Below the pieces are notes generated by a model. That model was not told where the DNA came from. It saw only the letters and a list, made by a program, of their open reading frames with translations, and made no database searches. Shown here piece by piece: positions 1,616 through 36,420 of a stretch of DNA of 36,531 nt. Source of the DNA: Micavibrio sp. (lineage in GTDB: Bacteria; Pseudomonadota; Alphaproteobacteria; Micavibrionales; Micavibrionaceae); the NCBI GenBank assembly GCA_027075555.1, contig JALTAZ010000112.1:1-36531 (forward strand), written 5' to 3'. The position numbers were made by a program, and so were the translations under genes. The first letter of the stretch is position 1. Every line of letters begins with the position of its first letter.

Positions 1616-3985
1616 ATGGGTTTTAAAAAAACATCCGAAGGGCGCGTATTTTTTAAAAGTCCAGATAATGACGATACGCCTAATACAATAGTAGCTCCCG
1701 AAGTTAAAACTGCGGAAAAACCTATAAAATCCACGGCAAAAAAACCTACAATTAAGCAAGATAATATGCAAATGCAAATATTGCTATTGCTTAAATCCCT
1801 TAACTCAAAACTTAAAGATACAAAAGAAGACCAAACCTCAATAAAAAAAGAGCTAGATGAATATAAGGAAACGATCAAATCCCTAGAAGAAAAGACAGAA
1901 AAACAACAAAGCGATTATATTGACCTTGAACAAAAAGTTGCCAGTAAGCAAAATGAAGTTAGCAAGAAATCAACGCGCGTTGAAAATAGTGTAAAAACAA
2001 CATTAAAGCAGCTTGAAGAAGCTAAATCCCTAGTAAAACAGCTTGAAGAAAAATCTGAGGATTACGATAAAACTTTAGAAAAAATAAAAAATGATGTTAA
2101 AACCCAAACTCAAAAACAAAATAAAAATGTAGAAAAACTTAAAGAAACAATAGACAAAAAAAATCAAATAATTGAAAAAAAACAAAAAGCCCTTGAAGAC
2201 ACTCAAAAAATTCAAGGTGAGAAAATGGTTAATAGTGTTGCAACATATGTCGCCTTAACAAAGCGTGTAAGCGATGCAGAAACACGCCAAGAAGCACTTG
2301 ATAATAAAATAGAAGATGCGACCTCTGAATATCTTAAGCTTGATCGTAAAATTGATAAGGTCATTGAGGATCGCAATCGGATCTTACGCAAAGTTGAACG
2401 TATAGAACAAGCGGTACTTGAAACTAGAGATGCTCTTAACGCTAAGGCCATGGTATTACTTACCGATCAGGGAATCGCCGGTGTTAGTATGCCAAAAATA
2501 AGTGACCAGACGCTGCAAACTGACCCAATGATATTGCAACGTCGCCTTCAAGAAGAAGCCATGATGCCATGGTGGCGAAAGCCTATAAGGTTACAAGCAA
2601 CCAGCCTTGCCCTGTTGATATTAGCCGTATTATTATTAGGCTGGGTGCTGAGCGCAGCAAACCGCCCCGATCCAGTTATAACAACACGAGAACCCATTGT
2701 TCAACCACCACCAAAGGTAATATTAAATACACCCAAAAGTGAAGATAAACAAACGCTAAATATTCCGCTGAAAGAGGAAGAAGAAAGTAATATAAAAATA
2801 GCTCACTCTATAGATTCTAAACCAAATTTTCAGCTTGAACATGATTATAATAATAAGGTACCCGCGCAAAACTCTATAAAGGCAATACAAGAAAATAATA
2901 AGCATGATAACCAAGACATTATAAGAAGCAAAGATCTTGATATAAGCAATGATAAGCAAATGCTTGCTGCTATGGAGGAAAACCCTGAAATGGTTGCAGA
3001 GCGCCTAAATCAAATAGAACCACAAAATATTGCTGCGCCTTATAATAAACACTATAATAAACATAAAAAACAAGAAAATAAGGATATAAACGCCAAACAA
3101 ATTGCCTCTGACGCGACATCACCTGCTCAAATTATTGATAATGCTTATATAACAGAGCTTAAAAAACGTATAAAGCCAGATCCTAACCTAAGCAATATTG
3201 CGAAAAAGATAGAAGAAAAAGCCTTTGAAGGTGTTCCTGAAGCTCAACATGATATGGGCGCAATATATGTTTCAGGTAATGGCAAAGTTAAGCAAGACTT
3301 AAAACGTGCCGTCTTATGGTTTCAAGAAGCAGCAAATAACGGTGTTGCTAATGCGAAATATAATTTAGGAGTTTTATATCACCAAGGTATGGGAGTAGAA
3401 AAAAATCTTGATAAGGCATTAAAACTATATACACAGGCAGCAAAATTAGGACACCCTGAGGCTCAATATAATCTGGGAATAGCAAATATTGAGGGTATAG
3501 GCGTTCCTTACAATCCACAAAAAGCAGCCTCTTACTTCAAAGCGGCGGCAAAGCATGGGATTATAGAGGCTGCGTATAATCTTGGTCTTATATATGAAAA
3601 TGGTCTTTTAGGTAAATCCCAACCCGATATTGCCCTTACATGGTATAAACATGCAGCCAATGGCGGAAGCCCTGAGGCAAAATCCGCCATGCAACAATTA
3701 GCAATATCATTGGGTATAAGCCAAGAAGATATAGATAGAATTGTTAAAAATGTAGAAAAGAACAACTCAAGCCTTTCTAATATCAAGGATCAAAAACAAC
3801 TGATATCAAAAACTCAAAATGAGCTTATGCGCCGAGGCTTATATCCTGGCCCTGTCGATGGCGTGATGGGACCGATGACGGAAAATGCTATAAAATCGTT
3901 TCAAAAAGCAGCAAATATAGACGTAACTGGTGAGGTATCTGAAGATTTGCTGAAATATCTTAGAGCATCATCAAGTTACCCTTAA
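1616..3985 (+). CDS. PodJ-like polarity protein: coiled coil, TM, Sel1 repeats, peptidoglycan-binding domain
   Basis: The 789-residue protein has four parts. Residues about 55-270 are lysine/glutamate-rich coiled coil. Residues about 325-347 are a single membrane helix (LALLILAVLLLGWVL). Residues about 521-698 hold four Sel1/TPR-like repeats (for example AVLWFQEAANNG, NAKYNLGVLYHQGMGVEKN). Residues about 724-786 form a PG_binding_1 domain (QNELMRRGLYPGPVDGVMGP). This order matches alphaproteobacterial PodJ-type localization factors, whose cytoplasmic coiled coil organises the new cell pole and whose periplasmic part contacts peptidoglycan. The Asn/Lys-rich linker at about 350-520 is low complexity. 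The start has AAAGGA about 10 bases upstream. PodJ of Caulobacter is longer (around 970 residues, from memory), so orthology is inferred from architecture only. Confidence 0.75.
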   Translation: MGFKKTSEGRVFFKSPDNDDTPNTIVAPEVKTAEKPIKSTAKKPTIKQDNMQMQILLLLKSLNSKLKDTKEDQTSIKKELDEYKETIKSLEEKTEKQQSDYIDLEQKVASKQNEVSKKSTRVENSVKTTLKQLEEAKSLVKQLEEKSEDYDKTLEKIKNDVKTQTQKQNKNVEKLKETIDKKNQIIEKKQKALEDTQKIQGEKMVNSVATYVALTKRVSDAETRQEALDNKIEDATSEYLKLDRKIDKVIEDRNRILRKVERIEQAVLETRDALNAKAMVLLTDQGIAGVSMPKISDQTLQTDPMILQRRLQEEAMMPWWRKPIRLQATSLALLILAVLLLGWVLSAANRPDPVITTREPIVQPPPKVILNTPKSEDKQTLNIPLKEEEESNIKIAHSIDSKPNFQLEHDYNNKVPAQNSIKAIQENNKHDNQDIIRSKDLDISNDKQMLAAMEENPEMVAERLNQIEPQNIAAPYNKHYNKHKKQENKDINAKQIASDATSPAQIIDNAYITELKKRIKPDPNLSNIAKKIEEKAFEGVPEAQHDMGAIYVSGNGKVKQDLKRAVLWFQEAANNGVANAKYNLGVLYHQGMGVEKNLDKALKLYTQAAKLGHPEAQYNLGIANIEGIGVPYNPQKAASYFKAAAKHGIIEAAYNLGLIYENGLLGKSQPDIALTWYKHAANGGSPEAKSAMQQLAISLGISQEDIDRIVKNVEKNNSSLSNIKDQKQLISKTQNELMRRGLYPGPVDGVMGPMTENAIKSFQKAANIDVTGEVSEDLLKYLRASSSYP

Positions 3986-4102: not shown

Positions 4103-4864
4103 TTACTTATTATCTTTGCTATCAGTAACCGGGGCAGCCTTTGCTGTTTCTTGTATTTTTGGCTTTGCCACCAATAGTAATTGTTTTTCAATAACTTGAC
4201 ACTGGGGCTGGCGTATTATACAAAAACTAGATCCCATAGCTAATTGTCGCAGATCTCTGTCTGGATAGACTTCTGTCTTTTCTGAAACATAATTTATGAC
4301 ATTCAAGCATTTCTTTAGATTGTCGCTCATAGAAAGTGGAATTGCCTCATCTTTTGATTTCATAATAACTCCACTACAATTTTCTTTAAGTATCTCTTGA
4401 AAAGGAACTTTTAAATCGTCTGGAGCAACCTTTGAATAATAGAGCCTTTTCATATAATCTTTGGTTAGCTCAACGGTCATAGAAGATATATATCTTAGGC
4501 ATTTTTGTTTTGCCCATTGTCCATTGCAATATTTAGCAATATCTTTCACATGGGGAATAGCCTTCTTGCTATATTCTTTGGATAAAGCTGAATTATCCAT
4601 AGGAACTGCAACTTTAGAAAAATCCAAGCGCCTGTTAACACTACTTCCATAACCATACCATAGTGATTTTGGATCACCAATATCGACATAGTCCTCTGGG
4701 TGAAACATTCCCACAGGCCCTTTGCCTCTTTTTGGTCCACCATCTATTTTTTTCTCAGGTAATTTATATTTTTCCCCTTTATCATCTGCTGAATAAGCCT
4801 TATTTGGAATAGAAAAAACTAAAGACATTGATAAAAGAAATAAAAATGCAGAAAATATTTTCAT
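4103..4864 (-). CDS. Secreted protein of unknown function with six cysteines
   Basis: I do not recognise this 253-residue protein. Residues 1-25 are a clear Sec signal peptide (KIFSAFLFLLSMSLVFS, then AYS before ADD), so the mature protein is periplasmic or exported. The mature part is lysine-rich and has six cysteines, two of them as C-x-x-x-x-x-x-x-C in KYCNGQWAKQKC and two as FCIIRQPQC. This even number suggests disulfides, possibly helped by the TlpA-like protein nearby, though that link is only inferred. There is no TM helix beyond the signal. The C-terminus is a low-complexity Ala/Lys/Asp tail. It converges on the podJ-like gene and is transcribed alone. Confidence 0.7.
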   Translation of the reverse strand: MKIFSAFLFLLSMSLVFSIPNKAYSADDKGEKYKLPEKKIDGGPKRGKGPVGMFHPEDYVDIGDPKSLWYGYGSSVNRRLDFSKVAVPMDNSALSKEYSKKAIPHVKDIAKYCNGQWAKQKCLRYISSMTVELTKDYMKRLYYSKVAPDDLKVPFQEILKENCSGVIMKSKDEAIPLSMSDNLKKCLNVINYVSEKTEVYPDRDLRQLAMGSSFCIIRQPQCQVIEKQLLLVAKPKIQETAKAAPVTDSKDNK

Positions 4865-16468: not shown

Positions 16469-16733
16469 ATAAAGATAAAAAAATACTATAAAAAAAATGA
16501 CAAAATGAGCATATATTTGTTTGATATATAAAAACCCTTACATTACACTTAAGGTTGTGCTTCTAGCTTGTTACTTTATAATAATCTGAACTCTTTATTT
16601 TTAATAATATTTTACTATCCTATAATAATTATTTTGCTAATTTTAAATAATAACCCTCCTTTCTATATGATTTTATTAGTATTTTTAAATATATAATTTT
16701 CTTAAATTATGTTATGTTTGTGTTCTGAATTTG

Positions 16734-16761
16734 TTGACGGCTTAATATTAGCTAGTATATA
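16734..16761 (+). promoter_or_regulatory. Candidate promoter of the LuxR-type regulator
   Basis: TTGACG (16734-16739) is followed after 16-18 bases by an alternating TATATA run (16756-16763), giving a plausible sigma-70 promoter about 45 bases upstream of ATG 16808. Confidence 0.4.
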
Positions 16762-16807
16762 TATATCGGTGTTAGAGTAAGTTCTTACTAAGGTTAGGTT
16801 GTGTATA

Positions 16808-16862
16808 ATGCAAGATATTAGTGTTCTACTAATAGAAAAAAAATTCCTTTTTAAAAGAAGGA
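16808..16862 (+). other. Out-of-frame 5' end of the LuxR regulator, with an eight-A run
   Basis: ATG 16808 opens MQDISVLLIEKKFLFKRR, a receiver-domain start, but runs into a stop soon after. Removing one A from the run of eight at 16836-16843 gives MQDISVLLIEKNSFLKEGMK, which joins exactly onto the frame starting at 16863 and matches the usual receiver opening (VLLIE-x-x-x-x-x-x-EG-x-x-x-LLE). So this stretch is the true N-terminus, separated by a one-base shift. A sequencing error, a mutation, phase variation or transcriptional slippage on the A run could each explain it. Confidence 0.75.
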
Positions 16863-17528
16863 ATGAAGAGTTTGTTAGAAAAATATGGCTATACTGTTGA
16901 TGATGAAGTAGTAGATTTAAACGATATAGCTATGATATCAAGTGATAAAAAATATGACCTAATTATTTATGGAGCTCATAATGAAGATGATAGAGCTTCT
17001 TTTATCAAGTCATTGAAGGTTAAATTTTATAGTTCTAAAATTGTAGTTCTTGCCGAAGATCTAAATTCAAGGCTTATGAAAGAGAGTTTTTGTTCTGGTG
17101 CTGATGGTTTTTTGCTACAAGACATATCTTCAAGGGCTTTTATAGGGTCTTTAGACCTTATTATGATGGGTGAGAAAGTCTTTCCTACATCCATGGCGTC
17201 TATAATTAGTGATGGTTGGGGGGGCTGGTGTGACAAATATAAAATTGATGTGCTTGATGAATATGATATATCCGCAAGGGAATTGGATATAATCCGGTGC
17301 TTAGCTAATGGTTTTTCAAATAAATCCATCGCCAGAGAGCTAAATATTACTGAGGCCACAGTCAAGGTTCACTTAAAAGCTGTGCTTCGCAAGCTAGGGC
17401 TTGAGAACCGCACCCAAATTGCTATATGGGCAGTGAGCCAAGGCATAGTTCCATGTCCTGAAATTATTGTACATAAATTAGATCACAGAAAGGGAAAGGC
17501 TGCCTCCTTAGTAGGGAGTGTGCACTAA
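16863..17528 (+). CDS. LuxR-type regulator with degenerate receiver (CsgD-like architecture), main frame
   Basis: This 221-residue frame lacks only the first 18 residues of a receiver domain, which lie upstream in another frame. The receiver is degenerate: the phosphoacceptor position is Gly37 (YDLIIYGAH instead of DLxxLD), the switch Thr/Ser position is Ala64 (VVLAED) and the conserved Lys is Gln86 (FLLQDIS). The acidic pair is also replaced by E-K. Residues about 136-195 form an intact LuxR/NarL helix-turn-helix (SARELDIIRCLANGFSNKSI, then TVKVHLKAVLRKLG). It should therefore bind DNA without phosphorylation, as CsgD-type regulators of curli do. Its end overlaps tail to tail with the secreted-protein gene of the CsgG cluster, suggesting it controls that cluster. 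ATG 16863 has no properly spaced ribosome-binding site, so this is not the natural start. Confidence 0.8.
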   Translation: MKSLLEKYGYTVDDEVVDLNDIAMISSDKKYDLIIYGAHNEDDRASFIKSLKVKFYSSKIVVLAEDLNSRLMKESFCSGADGFLLQDISSRAFIGSLDLIMMGEKVFPTSMASIISDGWGGWCDKYKIDVLDEYDISARELDIIRCLANGFSNKSIARELNITEATVKVHLKAVLRKLGLENRTQIAIWAVSQGIVPCPEIIVHKLDHRKGKAASLVGSVH

Positions 17529-18020
17529 AGCCGTCCAATCATCTACTGAGTTATTTGGAGTAAAAGATACCGGGGCACCGCTAACTACTCTTGATGTCCA
17601 TGTGCTTATCATAGTTCCTGAAGTTATACTTGCTAGTGCTGCCCTAGAGTTACCCCCCTTTCTTGGTGAAAAATAAGAGTTAAACACCCCAGCAGTCATA
17701 TCCAGATTGTCATCTTTATAACTTCTACCCTTATATTTAGGTAAATAACCACTATTTCCCTCATTACTTACAATAGCAGAACGCCCAGGACCTATCGTAA
17801 CATCGAGCAAGATACCAGAATCACTTCTAACTAGATTTTTAGGCCTAAACCCTAAAATCTTATCATTTATTATAGCCTGTTGAGCGCCTATGCTCATTCC
17901 TACACCACCATCTGGAGTTCCTCTGAATGAAAAAGGCCTATTGTCCATCTGTGCCATTGCTGAATGCCCGATAATAGTAAAACCTATTGCCATGCTAATA
18001 GTTAAAAATCCATTTCTCAT
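17508..18020 (-). CDS. Secreted protein of the CsgG cluster, unknown (HfaA/CsgF-like role possible)
   Basis: The 170-residue protein has a Sec signal (residues 1-23, ending AMA) and a mature part rich in Gly, Ser and Asn with no cysteine. The mature N-terminus is QMDNRPFSFRGTPDGGVGMS, then GAQQAIINDKILG. Its position beside the CsgG-family lipoprotein, its size and its Gly/Ser/Asn-rich composition fit a small secreted surface or nucleator protein such as HfaA or CsgF, but I see no alignment good enough to claim either. Its N-terminus shares the pattern Q-x-x-N-x-P-aromatic-x-F with the protein at 20416-20847. It is divergent from the csgG operon across a 360-base shared upstream region. Confidence 0.65.
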   Translation of the reverse strand: MRNGFLTISMAIGFTIIGHSAMAQMDNRPFSFRGTPDGGVGMSIGAQQAIINDKILGFRPKNLVRSDSGILLDVTIGPGRSAIVSNEGNSGYLPKYKGRSYKDDNLDMTAGVFNSYFSPRKGGNSRAALASITSGTMISTWTSRVVSGAPVSFTPNNSVDDWTALVHTPY

Positions 18021-18185
18021 TTCAAAAGCTCCTGCCCTATGCCTATGTATGTGTGATGATAGTTTACATCTATTTTCTTTAATTAAAAATATATTTGTAC
18101 AAATACCCCTATATATCCTTGTATAGATAATTTATCCTACTAATTATTAATACTTTCTTTATAGAGGTTTAAAACCCAATGGCTA

Positions 18186-18197
18186 AAAAGGGGTAAT
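18186..18197 (+). promoter_or_regulatory. CsgD-box-like site 1
   Basis: AAAAGGGGTAAT fits the E. coli CsgD consensus AAAAGNGNNAWW as I remember it. By rough base-frequency arithmetic a match is expected a few times by chance in the whole window, but rarely within this 360-base region. Confidence 0.3.
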
Positions 18198-18260
18198 ACC
18201 GAATAGGTGTATACTAATACTTATTGTCTTAATTGGGATATATATGGAAAAATATATATA

Positions 18261-18276
18261 AAAAGTGTTACCTTTT
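18261..18276 (+). promoter_or_regulatory. CsgD-box-like site 2 with short inverted repeat
   Basis: AAAAGTGTTACC matches the same remembered consensus except for its last two bases, and AAAAG (18261-18265) pairs with CTTTT (18272-18276) around six bases. It is about 75 bases after site 1 in the same orientation. Confidence 0.25.
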
Positions 18277-18369
18277 AATATCCTGCTCATCCCCTATATT
18301 TCACTGTACTTAACGTAACATAGGAATATGCTAGCTCAAATCAACAAAGTTATTTGCATAAGTTTTTAT

Positions 18370-18375
18370 GAGGGG
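18370..18375 (+). promoter_or_regulatory. Ribosome-binding site fixing the csgG-like start
   Basis: GAGGGG lies seven bases before ATG 18383 and overlaps the other in-frame ATG at 18368, so 18383 is the better start. Confidence 0.6.
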
Positions 18376-18382
18376 TTTCAAG

Positions 18383-19255
18383 ATGCTTTTTAGACGTTTA
18401 TTGACTGCGGTTGTTAGTGCCTCTTTTTTAACTGGATGTGGCTCTTCTATTTTGGGAGTAACAACAAATGAAGCCGGAGTGAAGCCTGCTTTTAGTTATC
18501 ACGTCACCAATAATGATACCCCATATACTCAGTGTTTAGCCGCTTTGCAGAAAATACCAGCAAAAAATCTTCCTGTATTTGCAGTTGGGGAAATTGCTGA
18601 TAAGACAGGTCAAGTTAGTATTGATTCAGGTAATGCCCTAACCCAAGGAACATCTGAGATGGTTATTAGCGCCCTTGCTAAGACGGGTAAGGCGCATATG
18701 GTAGAGCGCTTAGATCTTAGAATACCGCTTGCAGAAGTTAAATTAGCAGAGCAGAAAAAACTTAATCGTACCGCGGCTGATTACGGCAGACTACCGGCAA
18801 GTGATTTTATATTAGTCGGTGCTTTGACAGAACTAAACTACAACATAATAAGTGGTGGTACTCAGCTATTTGTACGCGGCATGGGGGGTGGTGTTAGAAC
18901 TGTTGTTGTTAATGTAGCCCTTGATCTTCGTGTAATCGATTCACGAAATTTTGCCATACGCTATGTTGCCTCTTTGCAAAAGCAAATTTTAGGCTATGAA
19001 GTAGAGGCAAATGTATTTCGTTTCTTCGGAGATACTTTAATAGAGTTTGACGGTGGTTCAATTCGTAATGAACCTATGCAACTTGGTGTGCGCTCTGTTG
19101 CGGAAATGGCAGTTTACCAGATTATGACAGATTTCTTAAAGCTTCCTGGGGTTCCCGGCTGTGACCTCGTGGAGAACGACCACATGGCGTCGTATCTTAA
19201 ACAGCCAGAAAAAACTAAAACTCAAGAAGGAGTAAGTAACGATGAAACTATCTAA
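18383..19255 (+). CDS. csgG: CsgG/HfaB-family outer-membrane secretion lipoprotein
   Basis: From ATG 18383 the protein has 290 residues; an in-frame ATG at 18368 would add five. The signal ends in a lipobox (SFLTGC, Cys 19). The body has CsgG-family features: NLPVFAVGEIADKTGQ, TQGTSEMVISALAKTG, VERLDLRIPLAEVKLAEQKK, SDFILVGALTELNYN and ALDLRVIDSRNFAIRY. CsgG forms a nonameric outer-membrane pore that exports curli subunits; HfaB is the Caulobacter relative that secretes the holdfast anchors HfaA and HfaD. The NDTPYTQCL segment after the lipid anchor and the LAEQKKLNR segment seem closer to HfaB-type proteins, from memory. It overlaps the next gene by 14 bases, so their expression is coupled. 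Confidence 0.85.
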   Translation: MLFRRLLTAVVSASFLTGCGSSILGVTTNEAGVKPAFSYHVTNNDTPYTQCLAALQKIPAKNLPVFAVGEIADKTGQVSIDSGNALTQGTSEMVISALAKTGKAHMVERLDLRIPLAEVKLAEQKKLNRTAADYGRLPASDFILVGALTELNYNIISGGTQLFVRGMGGGVRTVVVNVALDLRVIDSRNFAIRYVASLQKQILGYEVEANVFRFFGDTLIEFDGGSIRNEPMQLGVRSVAEMAVYQIMTDFLKLPGVPGCDLVENDHMASYLKQPEKTKTQEGVSNDETI

Positions 19256-20306
19256 AAAACTCTTCTTAGCCTCAGCATCAGTAATGGTGCTTGGTCTAGG
19301 AGCACCATCAACAGCTAACGCTTTTGAAAGTGTGGAATGGAACTGGAACAATGATGTTAACAGCACTGTTTATATCAATGTTGATGTTGATAATCAGCTA
19401 GATGTATCTGGTCTAGTTCAAATCGAAAAAATCCAGATGAACATTGGTGATGTTACTGCAACATCTGTTGTAAATGGTGTTAGCAACAACCCGCCAGGTG
19501 CGCTTGACGGCACTGCTACAGGTACATTTACAGCGCCAATTGATCTGACTGCTGATGTCGACAGTAACGCTCCGAACAATCCGATTACTGCTGTTAATAT
19601 CAATGGTGGAGATCTTACTGCATCAAATGGTCAAGGTAATGTTGATGAAAATGCAAATCAAGTTAACATGCAATTTGACCTAAGTGGTACAGTTGAAGTT
19701 GATCTTTCAGAAGTTGAGTTTGATGGCATTAACGATGCTGTTGATCTTCCATCTGTTGAGAGCACAGCAACTGCTGTTGGTAATAACCAGTCAATCTCAA
19801 GCACTGTTGCACTTAACCTGCATGAAGGTCAATACAATATGGGCGATATTGGTTTTGGTTATGATAGAGACCTTCCTCCAATTCGTTCATTACCTGTTGA
19901 AGCATCAGCTCCTGCTACTGAAGTTGGTGGAAACACTATGACTGATATTTTAGCTCTTGCTACTATTGGTGCTGCTTTTGGTATCATTCAGCAAGGTGAT
20001 GTTACTGCTACATCAAGCGTAAGTGATATCTTGAATGCATCTGTTGATAGTTCAGCAACTGCTGTTGGTAACAACCTAAGTGTGGATCTTCAAGCTAACA
20101 CACCTGGTGATGCACTATTAGTTGCTGATCTTACTCAGTTCAACTATGCAAATGTTTCTGCTAACTCAGCAGTATCTGGCGTTAGTGTTAACAACTATGC
20201 CAACCTAGGTGTTCTTGATGGACCATTGGTTAACTCTGTTGCAACTGCTGTTGGTAACAACGTAAGCATCACAGTGGCTTCTCCGGTTGCTGTTGCTGTT
20301 GAATAA
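19242..20306 (+). CDS. Secreted repeat protein, candidate fibre or anchor subunit (HfaD-like?)
   Basis: The 354-residue protein has a Sec signal (residues 1-27, ending ANA) and a mature part made of Asn/Ser/Thr/Val/Ala/Gly-rich beta repeats. No cysteine and almost no Lys/Arg are seen in it. GDVTATS occurs at 69-75 and 252-258, with weaker forms GGDLTAS (122-128) and ANVSANS (303-309). ATAVGNN occurs at 176-182, 272-278 and 334-340, each followed by alternating polar/hydrophobic strands. A hydrophobic stretch near 233-249 separates the halves. It is acidic and likely a beta-solenoid or amyloid-like surface protein. Codons are noticeably less AT-biased than the neighbours, as in highly expressed genes. 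AAGGAG lies about eight bases before the start. Its position behind the CsgG-like pore makes it the likely cargo. Confidence 0.75.
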   Translation: MKLSKKLFLASASVMVLGLGAPSTANAFESVEWNWNNDVNSTVYINVDVDNQLDVSGLVQIEKIQMNIGDVTATSVVNGVSNNPPGALDGTATGTFTAPIDLTADVDSNAPNNPITAVNINGGDLTASNGQGNVDENANQVNMQFDLSGTVEVDLSEVEFDGINDAVDLPSVESTATAVGNNQSISSTVALNLHEGQYNMGDIGFGYDRDLPPIRSLPVEASAPATEVGGNTMTDILALATIGAAFGIIQQGDVTATSSVSDILNASVDSSATAVGNNLSVDLQANTPGDALLVADLTQFNYANVSANSAVSGVSVNNYANLGVLDGPLVNSVATAVGNNVSITVASPVAVAVE

Positions 20307-20364
20307 TTGGATAGAAAGCTTTCATTACAAAGCTAGATGTTCATTTTGATATTTAAAATTTAAG

Positions 20365-20393
20365 AGAGAGGAGCAAATTATTGCTCCCTCTCT
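20365..20393 (+). other. Strong intercistronic RNA hairpin
   Basis: GAGCAA with its flanking G (20370-20376) pairs with TTGCTCC (20381-20387) around an ATTA loop. After one bulged C the stem continues with AGAGA/TCTCT (20365-20369 with 20389-20393). There is no T-run behind it, so it looks less like a terminator than a stabilising or attenuating hairpin between the repeat protein and the next gene. Confidence 0.6.
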
Positions 20394-20415
20394 ATAGCTA
20401 GGAAGGAATAGTGTT

Positions 20416-20847
20416 ATGAAAGAATCGGAAAAAAAAGTTAAATTTTTGAGTGGTTCACTTTATATAGCCGCGTTTGCTATTATGATGATTCCGTCTTTGT
20501 CTAATGCTCAGGTAGGTAATAATCCATGGGGGTTTTCTACACAAAATAGAGCTTCTATTGCTGCTTTAATGAAGCAGGTAGAAGACAAGAAAAAAACTAG
20601 TAATGTTGTTGCTAGTGGCGGGGGAGATATAGTAAATTTGGTTTGTGGTGCTGACGCTGCATCATCGGCTACTGGTAATAGCTCTTGTGTTATACTTAAT
20701 AACTCTGATGCCGCAGTGAATATTGGGCAGGATTCACAAGGTGATCAAAATTCATCAAGTGAAGAAGTTACAAATGTTGATGAAACTATCAATGCAAATG
20801 TTGAAGCCATAGATGATGTTCTTCAAACTTTAAGTGGTAATCCATAA
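20416..20847 (+). CDS. Small secreted protein of the CsgG operon, possible minor subunit or pore partner
   Basis: The protein has 143 residues, with a signal peptide (residues 1-31, ending SNA) and mature start QVGNNPWGFSTQNRASIAAL. The middle (SSATGNSSCVILNNSDAAVN, then IGQDSQGDQNSS) has G-x-x-N-x-S spacing reminiscent of curlin repeats, plus two cysteines in LVCGADAASSATGNSSC. The end is acidic (EEVTNVDETINANVEAIDDV). AGGAAGGA sits about nine bases before the ATG. It is the last gene of the operon and follows the intercistronic hairpin. A role as a minor subunit, nucleator or CsgF-like plug is inferred from context; no family is firmly recognised. Confidence 0.65.
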   Translation: MKESEKKVKFLSGSLYIAAFAIMMIPSLSNAQVGNNPWGFSTQNRASIAALMKQVEDKKKTSNVVASGGGDIVNLVCGADAASSATGNSSCVILNNSDAAVNIGQDSQGDQNSSSEEVTNVDETINANVEAIDDVLQTLSGNP

Positions 20848-21048
20848 TATTGTATAGATATTATAATGGGATATTTGCCATTATTTATTGAGTAAAGTAA
20901 GGGGCGTGTTTTCGCCCGCGTTGGGGTGTGCGTTAGAATGTGTTGGCTATAGTATATTCATGTAAAAAACTAAAGGAAAAGCTGCGTAGTAGTAGTTAGT
21001 AAGTGTTACTCATGATTTGCGTTGGTAGCACACTGTTATATTAGCAAG

Positions 21049-21079
21049 CGCCATGACATGACGTTGGCGACAATTTTTT
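21049..21079 (+). terminator. Possible weak terminator of the csgG operon
   Basis: CGCCA (21049-21053) pairs with TGGCG (21065-21069) and is followed by ACAA and six Ts (21074-21079). The stem is only five base pairs with an 11-base loop, and it lies 200 bases after the last gene, so confidence is low. Confidence 0.3.
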
Positions 21080-21114
21080 AGATATAATATTTATAGGCAA
21101 TATGTTGAATATCA

Positions 21115-22326
21115 TTAGTCTATATCCTTAAAATCGTTATCTATCCATTTTTGCTCTAATCTATTTAATTCATATCCAAGTTCTCTTCCTTGTGGAATGC
21201 CTTTTGCTATTAAATTCTCTCCAGTAATTGGAAAATCTGGAATATTCCAATTTTGAATAATATTAAGCGCTTTTGGTACATATCCGTTAATAACACGATC
21301 TTGAACCAACTCTATTATTAAAGACTGCGCTGTTATACTCCTGCCAAACCTATATACGCTAACGCGCACAGCATGATCGCATGAAAGATCAGGAAGTTTA
21401 AGCGCCCTGTTAATAGCCTTCATATCCTTTAAAAAAACTTTGGGAAATAATATGAACTCCTCCATAGATTTTATATTCTCAAAATTAAGAGCGGCAAAAA
21501 CAAATAAACGTGATGATAAAGCGTTAAGTCTATATTTAGATTGAAATTTACAAAAATATTTGAAAAACTCTGGATTATAATCACAAAATTTAAAAAAATT
21601 TAAAATTTTATGCCTAAACATCACTTCTAAAACATCATAAGGTCTATCTGATGCTATAATTTTAAAAAACTCTTGAGTTATTCTCTCTTTTGAGAGTTTT
21701 TTTATTTTATCTGCTGCTTTCTCACATGCTTTTAGACCTTCTAAATCAAAATTATTGGCATAAATTGCAGAAAAACGGAAAAACCGTAAAATACGCAAAT
21801 GATCTTCTTCTATCCGCTTTTTGGGATTACCAACAAAAACTACTCTGCGCTGAGCTATATCATCAATCCCTGTTCCTAATGGGTCATAGACATTACCCTT
21901 ACAATCCATCAGCAATGTATTTATTGTAAAATCTCGCCTTTTGGCATCTTCAGCCCACGAATCGGTAAAAGCTACTTCTGCATGTCTGCCATCGGTTTTT
22001 AAATCATGGCGCAATGTTGTTATTTCATAGCTGTTGCCATCAATAATTGCTGTCACAGTTCCATGCTTTAATCCTGTTGGAATAACTTTTATATTCTCAC
22101 GTTTTAAAATTTCAATAACATGCTCTGGTGACAATTTAGTAGCAATGTCAATATCTTCAACCTCTACATCCATTATAGCATTTCGCACACAACCGCCTAC
22201 AAACAAGGCTTGGGGCTCACTATCTGGAATGCCACCTTGAAGGGCTGCAAATAAGCGTTTGGTATTTTTACAGTTAATCCATTTTCTAGGAATAATTTTT
22301 TGCTTAATTTCTAAGATCATTTTCAA
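21115..22326 (-). CDS. cca: CCA-adding enzyme / poly(A) polymerase-family tRNA nucleotidyltransferase
   Basis: The 403-residue class II nucleotidyltransferase carries the G-G-x-V-R motif (LFVGGCVRNAI), the metal-binding D-x-D in VEDIDIA, the KHGTVTAIIDG and TTLRHD segments, AKRRDFTINTLLMD and the neck motif HLRILRFFRFSAIYA. The remainder is the helical tail. Alphaproteobacteria use such proteins to add or repair the CCA end of tRNAs, while related proteins polyadenylate RNA; sequence alone leaves some doubt. It is divergent from the MoxR operon with 72 bases between starts. This cca/MoxR neighbourhood is common in alphaproteobacteria. Confidence 0.9.
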   Translation of the reverse strand: MKMILEIKQKIIPRKWINCKNTKRLFAALQGGIPDSEPQALFVGGCVRNAIMDVEVEDIDIATKLSPEHVIEILKRENIKVIPTGLKHGTVTAIIDGNSYEITTLRHDLKTDGRHAEVAFTDSWAEDAKRRDFTINTLLMDCKGNVYDPLGTGIDDIAQRRVVFVGNPKKRIEEDHLRILRFFRFSAIYANNFDLEGLKACEKAADKIKKLSKERITQEFFKIIASDRPYDVLEVMFRHKILNFFKFCDYNPEFFKYFCKFQSKYRLNALSSRLFVFAALNFENIKSMEEFILFPKVFLKDMKAINRALKLPDLSCDHAVRVSVYRFGRSITAQSLIIELVQDRVINGYVPKALNIIQNWNIPDFPITGENLIAKGIPQGRELGYELNRLEQKWIDNDFKDID

Positions 22327-29232: not shown

Positions 29233-31176
29233 TTAAGCAGGTAATTGCTCTTTATGCAAAGCACCCTCTATAGCGTCTAACAACATATTTTTATTTACCG
29301 GCTTACGCAAAACCGCAGTAATTGCAGGATGGTTATCTATTATCTCTCTCATTTTTTCCTCGCTATATCCAGATAAGATAACAAATCTAAGACCTGGTAA
29401 ATCTTCATATATTTGATTTACCATTTCTAAACCAGTCATTATAGGCATATTATAATCAGTTATAATAAGATCAAATTCAGTTGGATTTTCACGAATTAAA
29501 TCAAGACCATCAAGCCCCGATACGGCATAAGAAGTTTTATATCCTAGGCGCTCTAACATCTTAAGAGTCATATTGCGCACATTTTCTTGATCTTCAATCA
29601 ATAGGATATGCCCATCTTTCTTAGAATTAGTATCATCATTTATCTTATTTGTATTTTTAACTGCACTTTGCTCCATATTACCAACTACAGGAAAATACAG
29701 CTCAAAAGTTGTTCCTTTTCCAAGAATACTGTCTATAACCAAAAACCCTTTATGACTAACAAGTACACCATGTACAGTGGCAAGACCAAGCCCTGTACCT
29801 TTATCAACAGGCTTAGTTGTAAAAAATGGCTCAAAAATATGCTCCATTATTACCCTGCTCATACCAGTTCCTGTATCAGAAATACTAAGTTTCACATAGC
29901 TGTTGTTTTTACATAAATGGCTTAATATTAAACGAGAGCGCCCAGCATCAATATCATCAATACGCAAATAAGGCGTCTCACTAGCATCTGGCAGCTCGCT
30001 TCTTACAACATTTTGAATATTTATATCATCAGGGCAAAACATATCCATTCTTACATCTATAACGCCATGATTATCCTCAATTGCATCTTGGGCATTTACG
30101 CATAAATTCATAACTACCTGTGAAATTTGAGTTTGGTTGCCATTTATAATAACAGAATCTACATTTATGGCGCTTTGCAACTCTATTGTTTTTGGAATAG
30201 TAACCGCAACCATAGACAATGCTTCATTAACAGATTTAACCAAATCAAGCGTATCTTTTCCGCTATTACTACGCCTTGAAAAAGCTAGCATCTGATCGAC
30301 TAGCTCTCTGGCTTGCATACCTGCCTGAAGTATATTTTCTGCAAATTTGCGTTGCTCTCCATCTTCATCAAGATCTTCTAACAAAAACTCTGCATAGCCA
30401 TTCATAGCAGCCAAAATATTATTAAAATCATGCGCTATTCCACCTGCAAGACGCCCTATAGCCTCCATCTTTTGGGCTTGATAGAATTGATCTTCTAAAT
30501 CCTTCTTTTCCTGCTCTGTCTTTTTCCTATAGCTAATATCTTGAACAGTGCCTATTAGGCCGCCATCTGGAATTCGTGTTATTGATATTTCTGTATAGAT
30601 TGAAGAATTATCTTCTCTATATATTTGAAAATCTCCATTCCAAAAGCCATTTTCATATAGTTCAGGCAGTATATCCTCTTCTATTATTTCAAAATCAGAA
30701 GGCAAAAATATATCCTCCCAGCTTTTTCCATTTAAGCTCTCTCTCCTACTATCATCAATTCCGATAATTTCACAAAAAGACTTATTTATGTATGAAATAT
30801 TGTCATTTTTATCCATTATAAAGATTCCGTCACGTGCCGCGTCTAATGCTGCTAAACGATTTTGTAAAAGACTAAGAGTTTTTATCCTTTCACAATTTAA
30901 ATTTTCTAGTCTCTTAAGTTTATCCGAGTTGAGAATAATTAGAACAAAACCACATATACCAACAGCATATATAGACCAATAAACCCACATTTCTTGACGT
31001 TCAAACTTGCTCCATAACATGCTCATGTCATGAGATGGAACAACATTTTGATAAGATTGACTTAAATCCTTTCGCATAACTATCAATTTAGATGCCGAAT
31101 ATATGGCAATCATTGAAAAAACAAGAATAATAATGGCGGGTAGGAAAAGTAAAAACCTACATTTTTTATCTTTCAT
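29233..31176 (-). CDS. Hybrid sensor histidine kinase, CckA-like architecture
   Basis: The 647-residue protein has two membrane helices (about residues 8-28 and 66-83) enclosing a short periplasmic loop, and a PAS domain (about 105-218). HisKA carries phospho-His249 in GGIAHDFNN. HATPase has an N box (VVMNLCVNAQDAIED), G1 (SDTGTGM) and G2 (KGTGLGLATVHG). The C-terminal receiver has phosphoacceptor Asp574 (LIITDYNMP) and Lys625. TM-TM-PAS-HK-REC is the layout of CckA, the kinase that feeds phosphate to ChpT and CtrA, and the HDFNN form of the H box is shared. It lies 70 bases downstream of a NarL-type response regulator on the same strand, so a separate two-component role is equally possible. 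Confidence 0.85.
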   Translation of the reverse strand: MKDKKCRFLLFLPAIIILVFSMIAIYSASKLIVMRKDLSQSYQNVVPSHDMSMLWSKFERQEMWVYWSIYAVGICGFVLIILNSDKLKRLENLNCERIKTLSLLQNRLAALDAARDGIFIMDKNDNISYINKSFCEIIGIDDSRRESLNGKSWEDIFLPSDFEIIEEDILPELYENGFWNGDFQIYREDNSSIYTEISITRIPDGGLIGTVQDISYRKKTEQEKKDLEDQFYQAQKMEAIGRLAGGIAHDFNNILAAMNGYAEFLLEDLDEDGEQRKFAENILQAGMQARELVDQMLAFSRRSNSGKDTLDLVKSVNEALSMVAVTIPKTIELQSAINVDSVIINGNQTQISQVVMNLCVNAQDAIEDNHGVIDVRMDMFCPDDINIQNVVRSELPDASETPYLRIDDIDAGRSRLILSHLCKNNSYVKLSISDTGTGMSRVIMEHIFEPFFTTKPVDKGTGLGLATVHGVLVSHKGFLVIDSILGKGTTFELYFPVVGNMEQSAVKNTNKINDDTNSKKDGHILLIEDQENVRNMTLKMLERLGYKTSYAVSGLDGLDLIRENPTEFDLIITDYNMPIMTGLEMVNQIYEDLPGLRFVILSGYSEEKMREIIDNHPAITAVLRKPVNKNMLLDAIEGALHKEQLPA

Positions 31177-31246
31177 GATTATAGTTTCACCTAATTACTT
31201 ATTTAGTTTAGTTAAAAATAATAGCTGCATTCTTAACCTCTCTTAC

Positions 31247-31927
31247 CTATGTGTCAGAAGCTGGGATAATTCCCATTTCCTTTGCCATAAGCGCAGCCTG
31301 AGTTCTATTATTTGCATTAAGTTTACGACAAACTCCACGAATATGAAGCTTTACAGTTACTACCTGCAAATCCAACGCTCTTGCAATTTCTTTATTAGAT
31401 GCGCCTTTAACAAGATATGAAAGAACTTCTCTTTCACGAGGGGTAAAAGTAACGCTATTATTAGTTTTTACAGCATTATCATCACACTTTTTATCATCAG
31501 AAGTAGAATCCGCATAATAAGATGGCATAAATTGTGCTTTTTCCCCTTTGGGAATAAATATTTCACCGTTAATTACATTTTGTATTGCTATAAGCAGTGC
31601 CTTACCAGAAAGTGTCTTAGGAAAATACCCTACAGCCCCCATATTCAAGGCTTTTTCTATATCTTCACTTTCTGCTACGCCAGACATAAGGGCTACTCGG
31701 TTATTAGGAAATTTATCCCTTACAACCTCAAACCCTCCAAGACCGTTCATTCCAGGCATCTTTAGATCCAGTATAACTAAGTCCTGATGAGGATCATTTT
31801 CCAATTTTGATAACGCCTCATAAAAATCTTTGGCAAGAGTAACATATGAAGACGGATTAGAACGCTCAATATATTGTACTAATGCATCCCTGAATAAAGT
31901 ATGATCATCTGCAATAAGCAGCTTCAT
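31247..31927 (-). CDS. NarL/FixJ-type response regulator
   Basis: From ATG 31927 the protein has 226 residues. An upstream ATG at 31951 is less likely because GGAGG (31935-31939) sits seven bases before 31927. The receiver is canonical: acidic D7-D8, phosphoacceptor Asp54 (VILDLKMPG), Ser82 (LMSGV) and Lys104 (YFPKTLSG). A LuxR helix-turn-helix follows a charged linker (TPREREVLSYLVKGASNKEI, then VTVKLHIRGVCRKLNANNRT). It precedes the hybrid kinase gene and probably forms an operon with it, though hybrid kinases often act through phosphotransfer proteins. Contrast with the regulator at 16863-17528, whose receiver has lost every key residue. Confidence 0.88.
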   Translation of the reverse strand: MKLLIADDHTLFRDALVQYIERSNPSSYVTLAKDFYEALSKLENDPHQDLVILDLKMPGMNGLGGFEVVRDKFPNNRVALMSGVAESEDIEKALNMGAVGYFPKTLSGKALLIAIQNVINGEIFIPKGEKAQFMPSYYADSTSDDKKCDDNAVKTNNSVTFTPREREVLSYLVKGASNKEIARALDLQVVTVKLHIRGVCRKLNANNRTQAALMAKEMGIIPASDT

Positions 31928-31934
31928 AAAAAAA

Positions 31935-31939
31935 CCTCC
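31935..31939 (-). promoter_or_regulatory. Ribosome-binding site deciding the response-regulator start
   Basis: GGAGG on the minus strand lies seven bases before ATG 31927, supporting that start over ATG 31951. Confidence 0.7.
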
Positions 31940-32045
31940 ACACACTACCACATCGTATAAAACGATGACTCCACTTCCTTAGTATAGCATAAATAAATTA
32001 GAAAAAACTTAAAAAAGATTGCTATCGTAACACATCTATAGATTG

Positions 32046-35582: not shown

Positions 35583-36296
35583 TTATAAATCTGGAACGTC
35601 AAAATCAGTACCAACATTTTTTTCTGTGCTGTAATTAGAAAAGCTGATTTTTACTCCTGTTTCACTATCCTTATTGTAGTCAGAGATATATACCCCCCTA
35701 TTACTATATATGGACGCACCATCTAGGGCTTTGCCAAGAACAGTAACTGCAGCGTAGTTGTTATCAGAATATTTATATCCACCAAATACGTCTTTATTCT
35801 TCGTACAAGGATAAGCTCTTATACCAGAACCCACATTAACACCCGCCCCGCCAGAACTATAACACATGGACATATAGCTCTCACTATGCCAGATTTCGGG
35901 TAGCTTAGCACTAACTTCTGATCCATCATGAATATCACCATTGACAACAATCAATCCATCATGAACCGTTACACTTGTACCTTTAGGAACATCACCTTCA
36001 ATCACTACAGAACCACCTGAAAAACTATAATCCACTCCCTCTTCCAAAGAGTAAGGAGAAACCCTGCAAAGTGAATGTTTCTCAACGCTCTGATCATTAT
36101 TCAACTTATTTGTCTTAAATACCGAAGTTTCGCTAATATATCCAACAGACTGTTTACTATCATCACCATCTATATCACATAGCTCAACGCGTGATGGATA
36201 CAAAACTACCGCCGCGGCAAAGGCGGCTGCCACAGCACCACCAACGCCTACAAACACGAGCTGCTGCTTATCACTTGAGTTATCAAACACACTCAC
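35583..36296 (-). CDS. Anchored exported protein with possible beta-helix, unknown
   Basis: I chose GTG 36296 as start (237 residues) because AAGGAG lies six bases upstream of it; ATG 36350 would add 18 residues with no ribosome-binding site. Residues about 12-32 form one Ala/Val/Gly-rich membrane helix (FVGVGGAVAAAFAAAVVLYP), so the rest is outside. Residues about 85-130 (GGSVVIEGDVPKGTSVTVHD, then GLIVVNGDIHDGSEVSA) repeat a short glycine-turn strand pattern like the right-handed beta-helix of DUF342/FapA and polymer-binding bactofilin-type folds. The C-terminus is rich in Tyr, Ser and Asn and has a few cysteines. No family is firmly identified. It converges with smpB and starts next to an insertion sequence end. 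Confidence 0.65.
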   Translation of the reverse strand: MSVFDNSSDKQQLVFVGVGGAVAAAFAAAVVLYPSRVELCDIDGDDSKQSVGYISETSVFKTNKLNNDQSVEKHSLCRVSPYSLEEGVDYSFSGGSVVIEGDVPKGTSVTVHDGLIVVNGDIHDGSEVSAKLPEIWHSESYMSMCYSSGGAGVNVGSGIRAYPCTKNKDVFGGYKYSDNNYAAVTVLGKALDGASIYSNRGVYISDYNKDSETGVKISFSNYSTEKNVGTDFDVPDL

Positions 36297-36302
36297 AACA
36301 AA

Positions 36303-36308
36303 CTCCTT
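36303..36308 (-). promoter_or_regulatory. Ribosome-binding site supporting a GTG start
   Basis: AAGGAG on the minus strand is six bases from GTG 36296 and decides the start of the anchored exported protein. Confidence 0.65.
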
Positions 36309-36420
36309 TATATGATTAACGGATACGATATCATAAAAGTGTAATGGCATATAATTAATTTTGTCAATAGCTATATCACCTTACGTCTTTGGCGGGAATA
36401 ATCTATGGGTGCATTACCTA

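Follow-up and report, generated by a model that had tools for sequence, protein, structure and literature searches.

In Caulobacter, delivery of HfaA and HfaD to the outer membrane depends on HfaB, and HfaD is required for HfaA to form multimers (PMC6707917). Within the open-access literature we know HfaABD only from holdfast-anchor papers, and among the matches listed for PMC none dealt with a locus such as the one described below outside the holdfast, which is no proof of absence in print. The main text of Dueholm 2012 on curli (PMC3521004) describes many Alphaproteobacteria in which only curlin subunits are recognisable, and that main text holds no word beginning with Hfa.

We compared these systems with a locus in a 36,531-nucleotide stretch of DNA from Micavibrio sp., here called the window (Table 1). 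The locus resembles HfaABD (HfaD model NF037936, HfaA model NF037934, HfaB model NF037935) in encoding an HfaB-family pore with a repeat protein directly downstream, in an HfaA-related small protein, and in a repeat unit, Q..V.A followed by A.AVGN, that recurs in 7 of 11 HfaD rows. It differs in that its HfaB scores below the model cut-off and lies on a separate branch, and in that the HfaD and HfaA models find no match; moreover, the small gene follows the repeat gene, whereas holdfast hfaA precedes hfaB (for example at L048), and there is also an additional, divergently oriented HfaA-like gene, together with LuxR-type regulators. With curli it shares a CsgG-family exporter (Pfam CsgG, PF03783, E 2.8e-26) and a nearby, somewhat CsgD-like, LuxR-type regulator, but its secreted proteins lack similarity to E. 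coli CsgA, CsgB and CsgF, and no curlin repeat (Pfam Curlin_rpt) occurs in the members scanned. The cassette hfaB-repeat-small is most likely an uncatalogued relative, in scattered Alphaproteobacteria, of the Caulobacter holdfast-anchoring system, and the repeat gene most likely encodes a secreted surface protein, exported via the curli/holdfast-anchor type pore encoded just upstream.

The repeat protein and its neighbours

Table 1. Features of the repeat protein gene and its neighbours, in window coordinates
Feature	Coordinates	Strand	Remarks
LuxR-type regulator (NarL/CsgD-like)	16863..17528	+	tail-to-tail overlap with the HfaA-like gene
Secreted HfaA-like protein	17508..18020	-	mature N-terminal motif AQ-x-N-x-P-[FW]-x-F, common with the small protein
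HfaB-type CsgG-family secretion lipoprotein, 14-nt overlap with the repeat gene	18368..19255	+	NF037935; lipobox LTGC by eye
Repeat protein, HfaD-like and in HfaD position	19242..20306	+	354 residues with a Sec signal; family not catalogued
Signal peptide, residues 1-27 (ends ANA, before F)	19242..19322	+	by eye; A-x-A before F here in many homologues
Unit 1 first half, residues 63-86, Q..IGDVTATS.V	19428..19499	+	conservation block
Variable segment 1, residues 87-163	19500..19730	+	conservation mean 0.31
Unit 1 second half, residues 164-201, LP.V.S.ATAVGNN...LHEGQ	19731..19844	+	conservation block
Variable segment 2, residues 202-240	19845..19961	+	conservation mean 0.31
Unit 2, residues 248-286, QQGDVTATSSV...VDSSATAVGNN	19983..20099	+	unit HMM, conservation
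Unit 3, residues 287-348, TQFNYANVSANSAV...VNSVATAVGNNVSI	20100..20285	+	unit HMM, conservation
Small secreted protein, C-terminal part HfaA-related	20416..20847	+	profile comparison, CAI

We collected 24 repeat protein rows (the window, 21 loci without the duplicate L055, and L112 and L114) and aligned 20 of them as alignment A2, omitting L039, L070, L112 and L114. The window protein shared 32-58% identity with the 19 other rows, and mean conservation was 0.58-0.65 in its blocks versus 0.31 in both variable segments. The original prediction, made from the sequence alone, had described alternating GDVTATS-like and ATAVGNN motifs; these were present as ATAVGNN at residues 176, 272 and 334, GDVTATS at 69 and 252, and ANVSANS at 303, while the motif placed at 122 was weak (GGDLTAS). 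One 6-mer occurred three times in identical form in the mature protein, an outcome given by 0 of 5000 shuffles. The mature part, as predicted, was devoid of cysteine and almost devoid of basic residues (Cys 0, Lys 1, Arg 2, His 1), with 27 Asp and 12 Glu. One homologous form (L039 5913-7706, G084) was a 598-codon frame with a long Ser/Thr/Ala-rich insert between units.

The lack of a named family with exactly this repeat also held, with no match in Pfam, NCBIfam or PDB: the 20 members gave no useful NCBIfam or Pfam family, and the 20-row profile had no PDB sequence match. A PDB sequence match at E 0.94 and the best Pfam match, one member's hit on an allergen-like model (E 0.003), were taken as chance, and neither YadA heads nor other repeat families gave a Pfam match at E of at most 1 worth following in the 20 members. 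Stacked beta strands had been proposed as the fold. The conserved blocks did show strand-like periodicity (z 2.9 and p 0.003 for the beta moment, against z -0.1 for the helix moment), which falls short of demonstrating a beta-solenoid fold, and AlphaFold was uninformative, both for the whole protein with one homologue (pLDDT 31.8) and for residues 232-354 with one homologue (pLDDT 33.6, a helical model).

An abundant product had been argued from codons less AT-biased than those of the neighbours, an argument that was wrong as stated, since the GC3 of the repeat gene (0.234) was the third lowest among the 25 window ORFs examined. Codon adaptation, measured against 21 ribosomal protein cluster genes of the same genome (L072, recognised by eye around S17; mean CAI 0.709), mildly favored abundance: CAI was 0.640 versus 0.570 expected from the amino acids, a ratio of 1.12 that ranked joint second of 25, but the raw CAI ranked only eighth. 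The small gene had the highest CAI of the 25 ORFs, at 0.710, equal to the ribosomal mean.

The other secreted proteins were equally without catalogue entries, with no useful NCBIfam or Pfam family for the small protein (window and three relatives) or for the divergent HfaA-like protein (window and one relative). The HfaA-like N-terminus looked CsgF-like by eye, a candidate we rejected at a score of 12.4, below the reversed control of 17.0. The regulator matched CsgD at 63 bits (cut-off 250) and scored higher with NarL. Rfam had no match in window positions 16500-21500, and promoter and terminator scans gave no excess over shuffles.

Elsewhere in the window, a forward-strand gene at 1616-3985 encodes a protein in which Pfam finds four Sel1 repeats and, at the C-terminus, a peptidoglycan-binding domain, while a coiled coil and a single membrane-spanning segment were recognised by eye; the architecture recalls PodJ, a polar organiser. 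Two reverse-strand genes encode a protein outside any Pfam family that begins with a signal-like stretch and contains several cysteines (4103-4864) and an orphan with weak Pfam matches only, some of them beta-solenoid-like (MinC_C, FapA; 35583-36350). A hybrid histidine kinase with a PAS domain lies beside a LuxR-type response regulator at 29233-31951 on the reverse strand, about 9 kb downstream of the small gene; this pair is a possible controller of the locus.

Comparison with the Hfa proteins

The window HfaB matched NF037935 at E 3.4e-51 and 174 bits, below the cut-off of 300, and the CsgG model at 54 bits; its Pfam CsgG match scored 92.6 bits, above the gathering score of 20.8. A tree that included E. 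coli CsgG and four remote rows was unreliable, as long branches broke both groups, and it was therefore rebuilt without them. In the resulting tree of 47 HfaB rows, 21 of the window kind split from the 26 others (22 above the NF037935 cut-off and four intermediate) on a 100/99 branch. The four intermediate HfaB proteins, from G094, G215, G377 and G130 (L030-L033; about 219-234 bits), form a third Hfa-type group, whose partners were seen in G094 only. The likeness lies in a secreted protein, encoded upstream, that bears N-x-P-W-x-F and AIGN motifs (L051 4378-5169), and the difference in a repeat frame on the downstream side (L051 7956-11501), which spans at least 1182 codons, is truncated where the L051 stretch ends and is not matched by the repeat HMM. 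G094 also carries an hfaB-repeat-small cassette beside this cluster.

Profile comparisons weakly suggest a link of the repeat protein to HfaD and of the small protein to HfaA. With hhalign, a repeat profile of 21 of the 24 rows (L070, L112 and L114 omitted) matched the HfaD profile with a probability of 59.9% and a score of 41.6 versus 13.7 reversed; a single-alignment rerun gave 33.8% and a score of 36.8 versus at most 17.2 in 150 column shuffles. The repeat profile also matched HfaA, at 40.6% (0 of 150 shuffles as high). For the small protein, the holdfast HfaA profile gave 79.5% and a score of 37.4 versus 11.1 reversed (0 of 150 column shuffles), and holdfast HfaA rows were the first matches of its HMM outside its own family (best E 3.5e-6). 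The HfaA-like protein matched the HfaA profile at 23% (0 of 150 shuffles) and the small protein at 65.7%, the latter match lying partly in the signal-peptide region. No link was found between the repeat and small protein profiles (0.7%; 4 of 150 shuffles scored higher, and one shuffle had an odd score).

The unit Q..V.A followed by A.AVGN, a pattern written after the sequences had been looked at, occurred 12 times in the 11 HfaD rows versus 0.26 expected; four of these rows lacked it, and it was present in 4 of 3387 other frames. The A.AVGN pattern was absent from all 22 small-protein rows. HMM searches from the repeat side did not find HfaD: the repeat HMM had none among its matches at E of at most 10, and a unit HMM found HfaA-bearing frames first outside the family (E 0.035 at best), with no HfaD among the best 40 matches. 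In the other direction, NF037936 (cut-off 100 bits) matched 0 of 20 repeat members at E of at most 10, compared with 366, 339 and 49 bits on three holdfast controls, and neither the HfaA nor the HfaD model matched the cassette proteins. The original prediction had named HfaD-type anchors as possible relatives. Gene position, the unit in most HfaD rows and the profile-profile match fit this, but formal membership and the family's own HMM do not support it, and the suggestion thus stands as resemblance and shared position rather than membership. Its broader idea, an anchor or fibre subunit, fits the neighbours, with an HfaB-type pore immediately upstream and an HfaA-related gene downstream.

Distribution and tandem cassettes

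The locus is patchy. We found the repeat protein in 3 of 58 near genomes, that of the window included, and within the genus 10 of 12 genomes had no match, though some of these are incomplete. HfaB of the window kind was present in 8 of 142 genomes of the order, one of them by a weak 70-residue match that was left out of the carrier count (G518, E 4.6e-5). A class-wide search of 386 genomes with NF037935 gave matches in 46: 22 above the cut-off, four intermediate, and the rest lower or weak, including 10 genomes in a lower band of about 140-180 bits. With iterative HMMs, the repeat protein turned up at every fetched lower-band and order locus but at none of eight loci of the holdfast or intermediate kind, and the repeat HMM had no match in 26 HfaB loci examined with about 1.5 kb on each side (L008-L033, eight of which overlap the earlier loci). 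No HfaB above the NF037935 cut-off was present in any of the 10 lower-band genomes.

Searching 387 class genomes directly for the repeat protein gave 13 matches, of which 12 were credible; G524 (E 4e-4, four stops) was not counted. All 12 credible carriers had hfaB, repeat and small genes, the hfaB of G408 being truncated by a contig end. In a phylum sample the repeat protein was found in 4 of 397 genomes, all four from Alphaproteobacteria (the share of the sample outside this class is not given). The order hfaB-repeat-small was seen in 23 of 23 cassettes at 20 loci (the window plus 19 others, with L070, which a contig end truncates, excluded), one cassette having only an hfaB remnant and one an hfaB cut by a contig end. 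As most of these loci were found via HfaB, the 23 of 23 says little about repeat genes without hfaB. An HfaA-like gene lay nearby in 15 of the 20 loci and a LuxR-type regulator in 19, a count that may include unrelated regulators because the model is generic. At three loci (L037 2488-3453, L042 2406-3380 and L044 2368-3483), the gene beside the small one encodes a protein with Sel1 repeats and a signal-like start, perhaps an extra part of the system.

One genome, G071, carries four tandem hfaB-repeat-small cassettes (L045 2920-14102) and two more elsewhere. The second L045 cassette retains only a 71-residue hfaB remnant, with its repeat and small genes open. Mean identity within G071 was 88% (81-93) for the five full HfaB copies, 60% (43-91) for the six repeat proteins and 57% (48-84) for five of the six small proteins, one being omitted from the identity table. 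Between the window and six relatives in the order, mean identity was 71% for HfaB, 52% for the repeat protein and 44% for the small protein; the HfaA-like protein (47%, five rows) and the regulator (45%) were equally diverged, so fast change is not peculiar to the exported pair at this range.

A proposed scaffold and its alternatives

We put a probability of roughly 0.6 on the repeat protein being an HfaD-like, probably beta-rich surface subunit that would be exported by the HfaB-type route and serve as scaffold for an HfaA-related fibre or anchor assembly. The protein would cross the inner membrane by its Sec signal and then the outer membrane through the HfaB-type CsgG-family pore, the product of the overlapping upstream gene. 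It may stay at the cell surface, its three repeat units forming the scaffold and the two variable segments between units the exposed part. The small HfaA-related protein, and perhaps also the HfaA-like protein encoded divergently, would assemble on or beside this scaffold into an attachment fibre or anchor. HfaB export and a scaffold role are proposed for the repeat protein because of the analogy with Caulobacter HfaA, HfaB and HfaD; the end product could be a fibre, a polysaccharide anchor or an adhesin patch. In favour of this reading are the overlap with hfaB, the constant cassette and the co-occurrence of its genes, the profile matches and the shared repeat unit, the CAI above its expected value and the beta moment; the HMM searches that do not join the two families, the HfaD rows without the unit and the uninformative AlphaFold models count against it.

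An alternative is that the repeat protein is itself a polymerising major fibre subunit, a curli-like amyloid, with the small protein as nucleator or secretion helper. Codon adaptation above expectation, three similar units free of cysteine and nearly free of basic residues, and a CsgG-family pore encoded alongside all suit such a subunit. We nonetheless judge it unlikely, as Curlin_rpt matched 0 of 20 members, profile comparison showed no similarity to curlins (probability 0.1% each against E. coli CsgA and CsgB), two long variable segments interrupt the units, and the higher CAI belongs to the small protein.

It is more doubtful still that the complex is a true holdfast-type anchor that, like HfaABD, fastens a polysaccharide to the outer membrane after its export. 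The HfaB kinship is compatible with this, as are two Wza/Wzc-type export clusters in the genome (by eye, around two Poly_export matches) and a Poly_export gene in 9 of 11 carriers searched. However, Poly_export is not specific to holdfast and was rejected as a marker of holdfast synthesis, and two of the 11 carriers showed none (G464, 81% complete; G335, 99%). The window HfaB, below its cut-off, sits on the other side of the 100/99 branch, 0 of 10 lower-band carriers have an HfaB above that cut-off, and the HfaA and HfaD models are unmatched. Export of the repeat protein is predicted, and an ordinary periplasmic or outer-membrane protein could merely adjoin an HfaB-type gene; the fixed cassette, the co-occurrence of its genes and the four tandem cassettes of G071 make such a coincidence very improbable.

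We read the repeat protein as an HfaD-like component of a second Hfa-type system at the cell surface, one apparently separate from the holdfast. More tentatively, and with rather less than even confidence, we suggest that this is a protein-only system, independent of both holdfast and curli, in scattered Alphaproteobacteria and built on a movable hfaB-repeat-small cassette. Six repeat genes in one genome, in four tandem cassettes (one with an hfaB remnant only) and two further copies, with the pores alike and the two exported proteins diverging, are as expected for a diversifying adhesin, and comparing the tandem copies would be a natural way to learn which part diversifies. If this is true, three protein families that had no catalogue match in the members scanned would gain a testable role, and a sister HfaB branch with its own exported partners would make Hfa-type export a wider alphaproteobacterial route of surface assembly.
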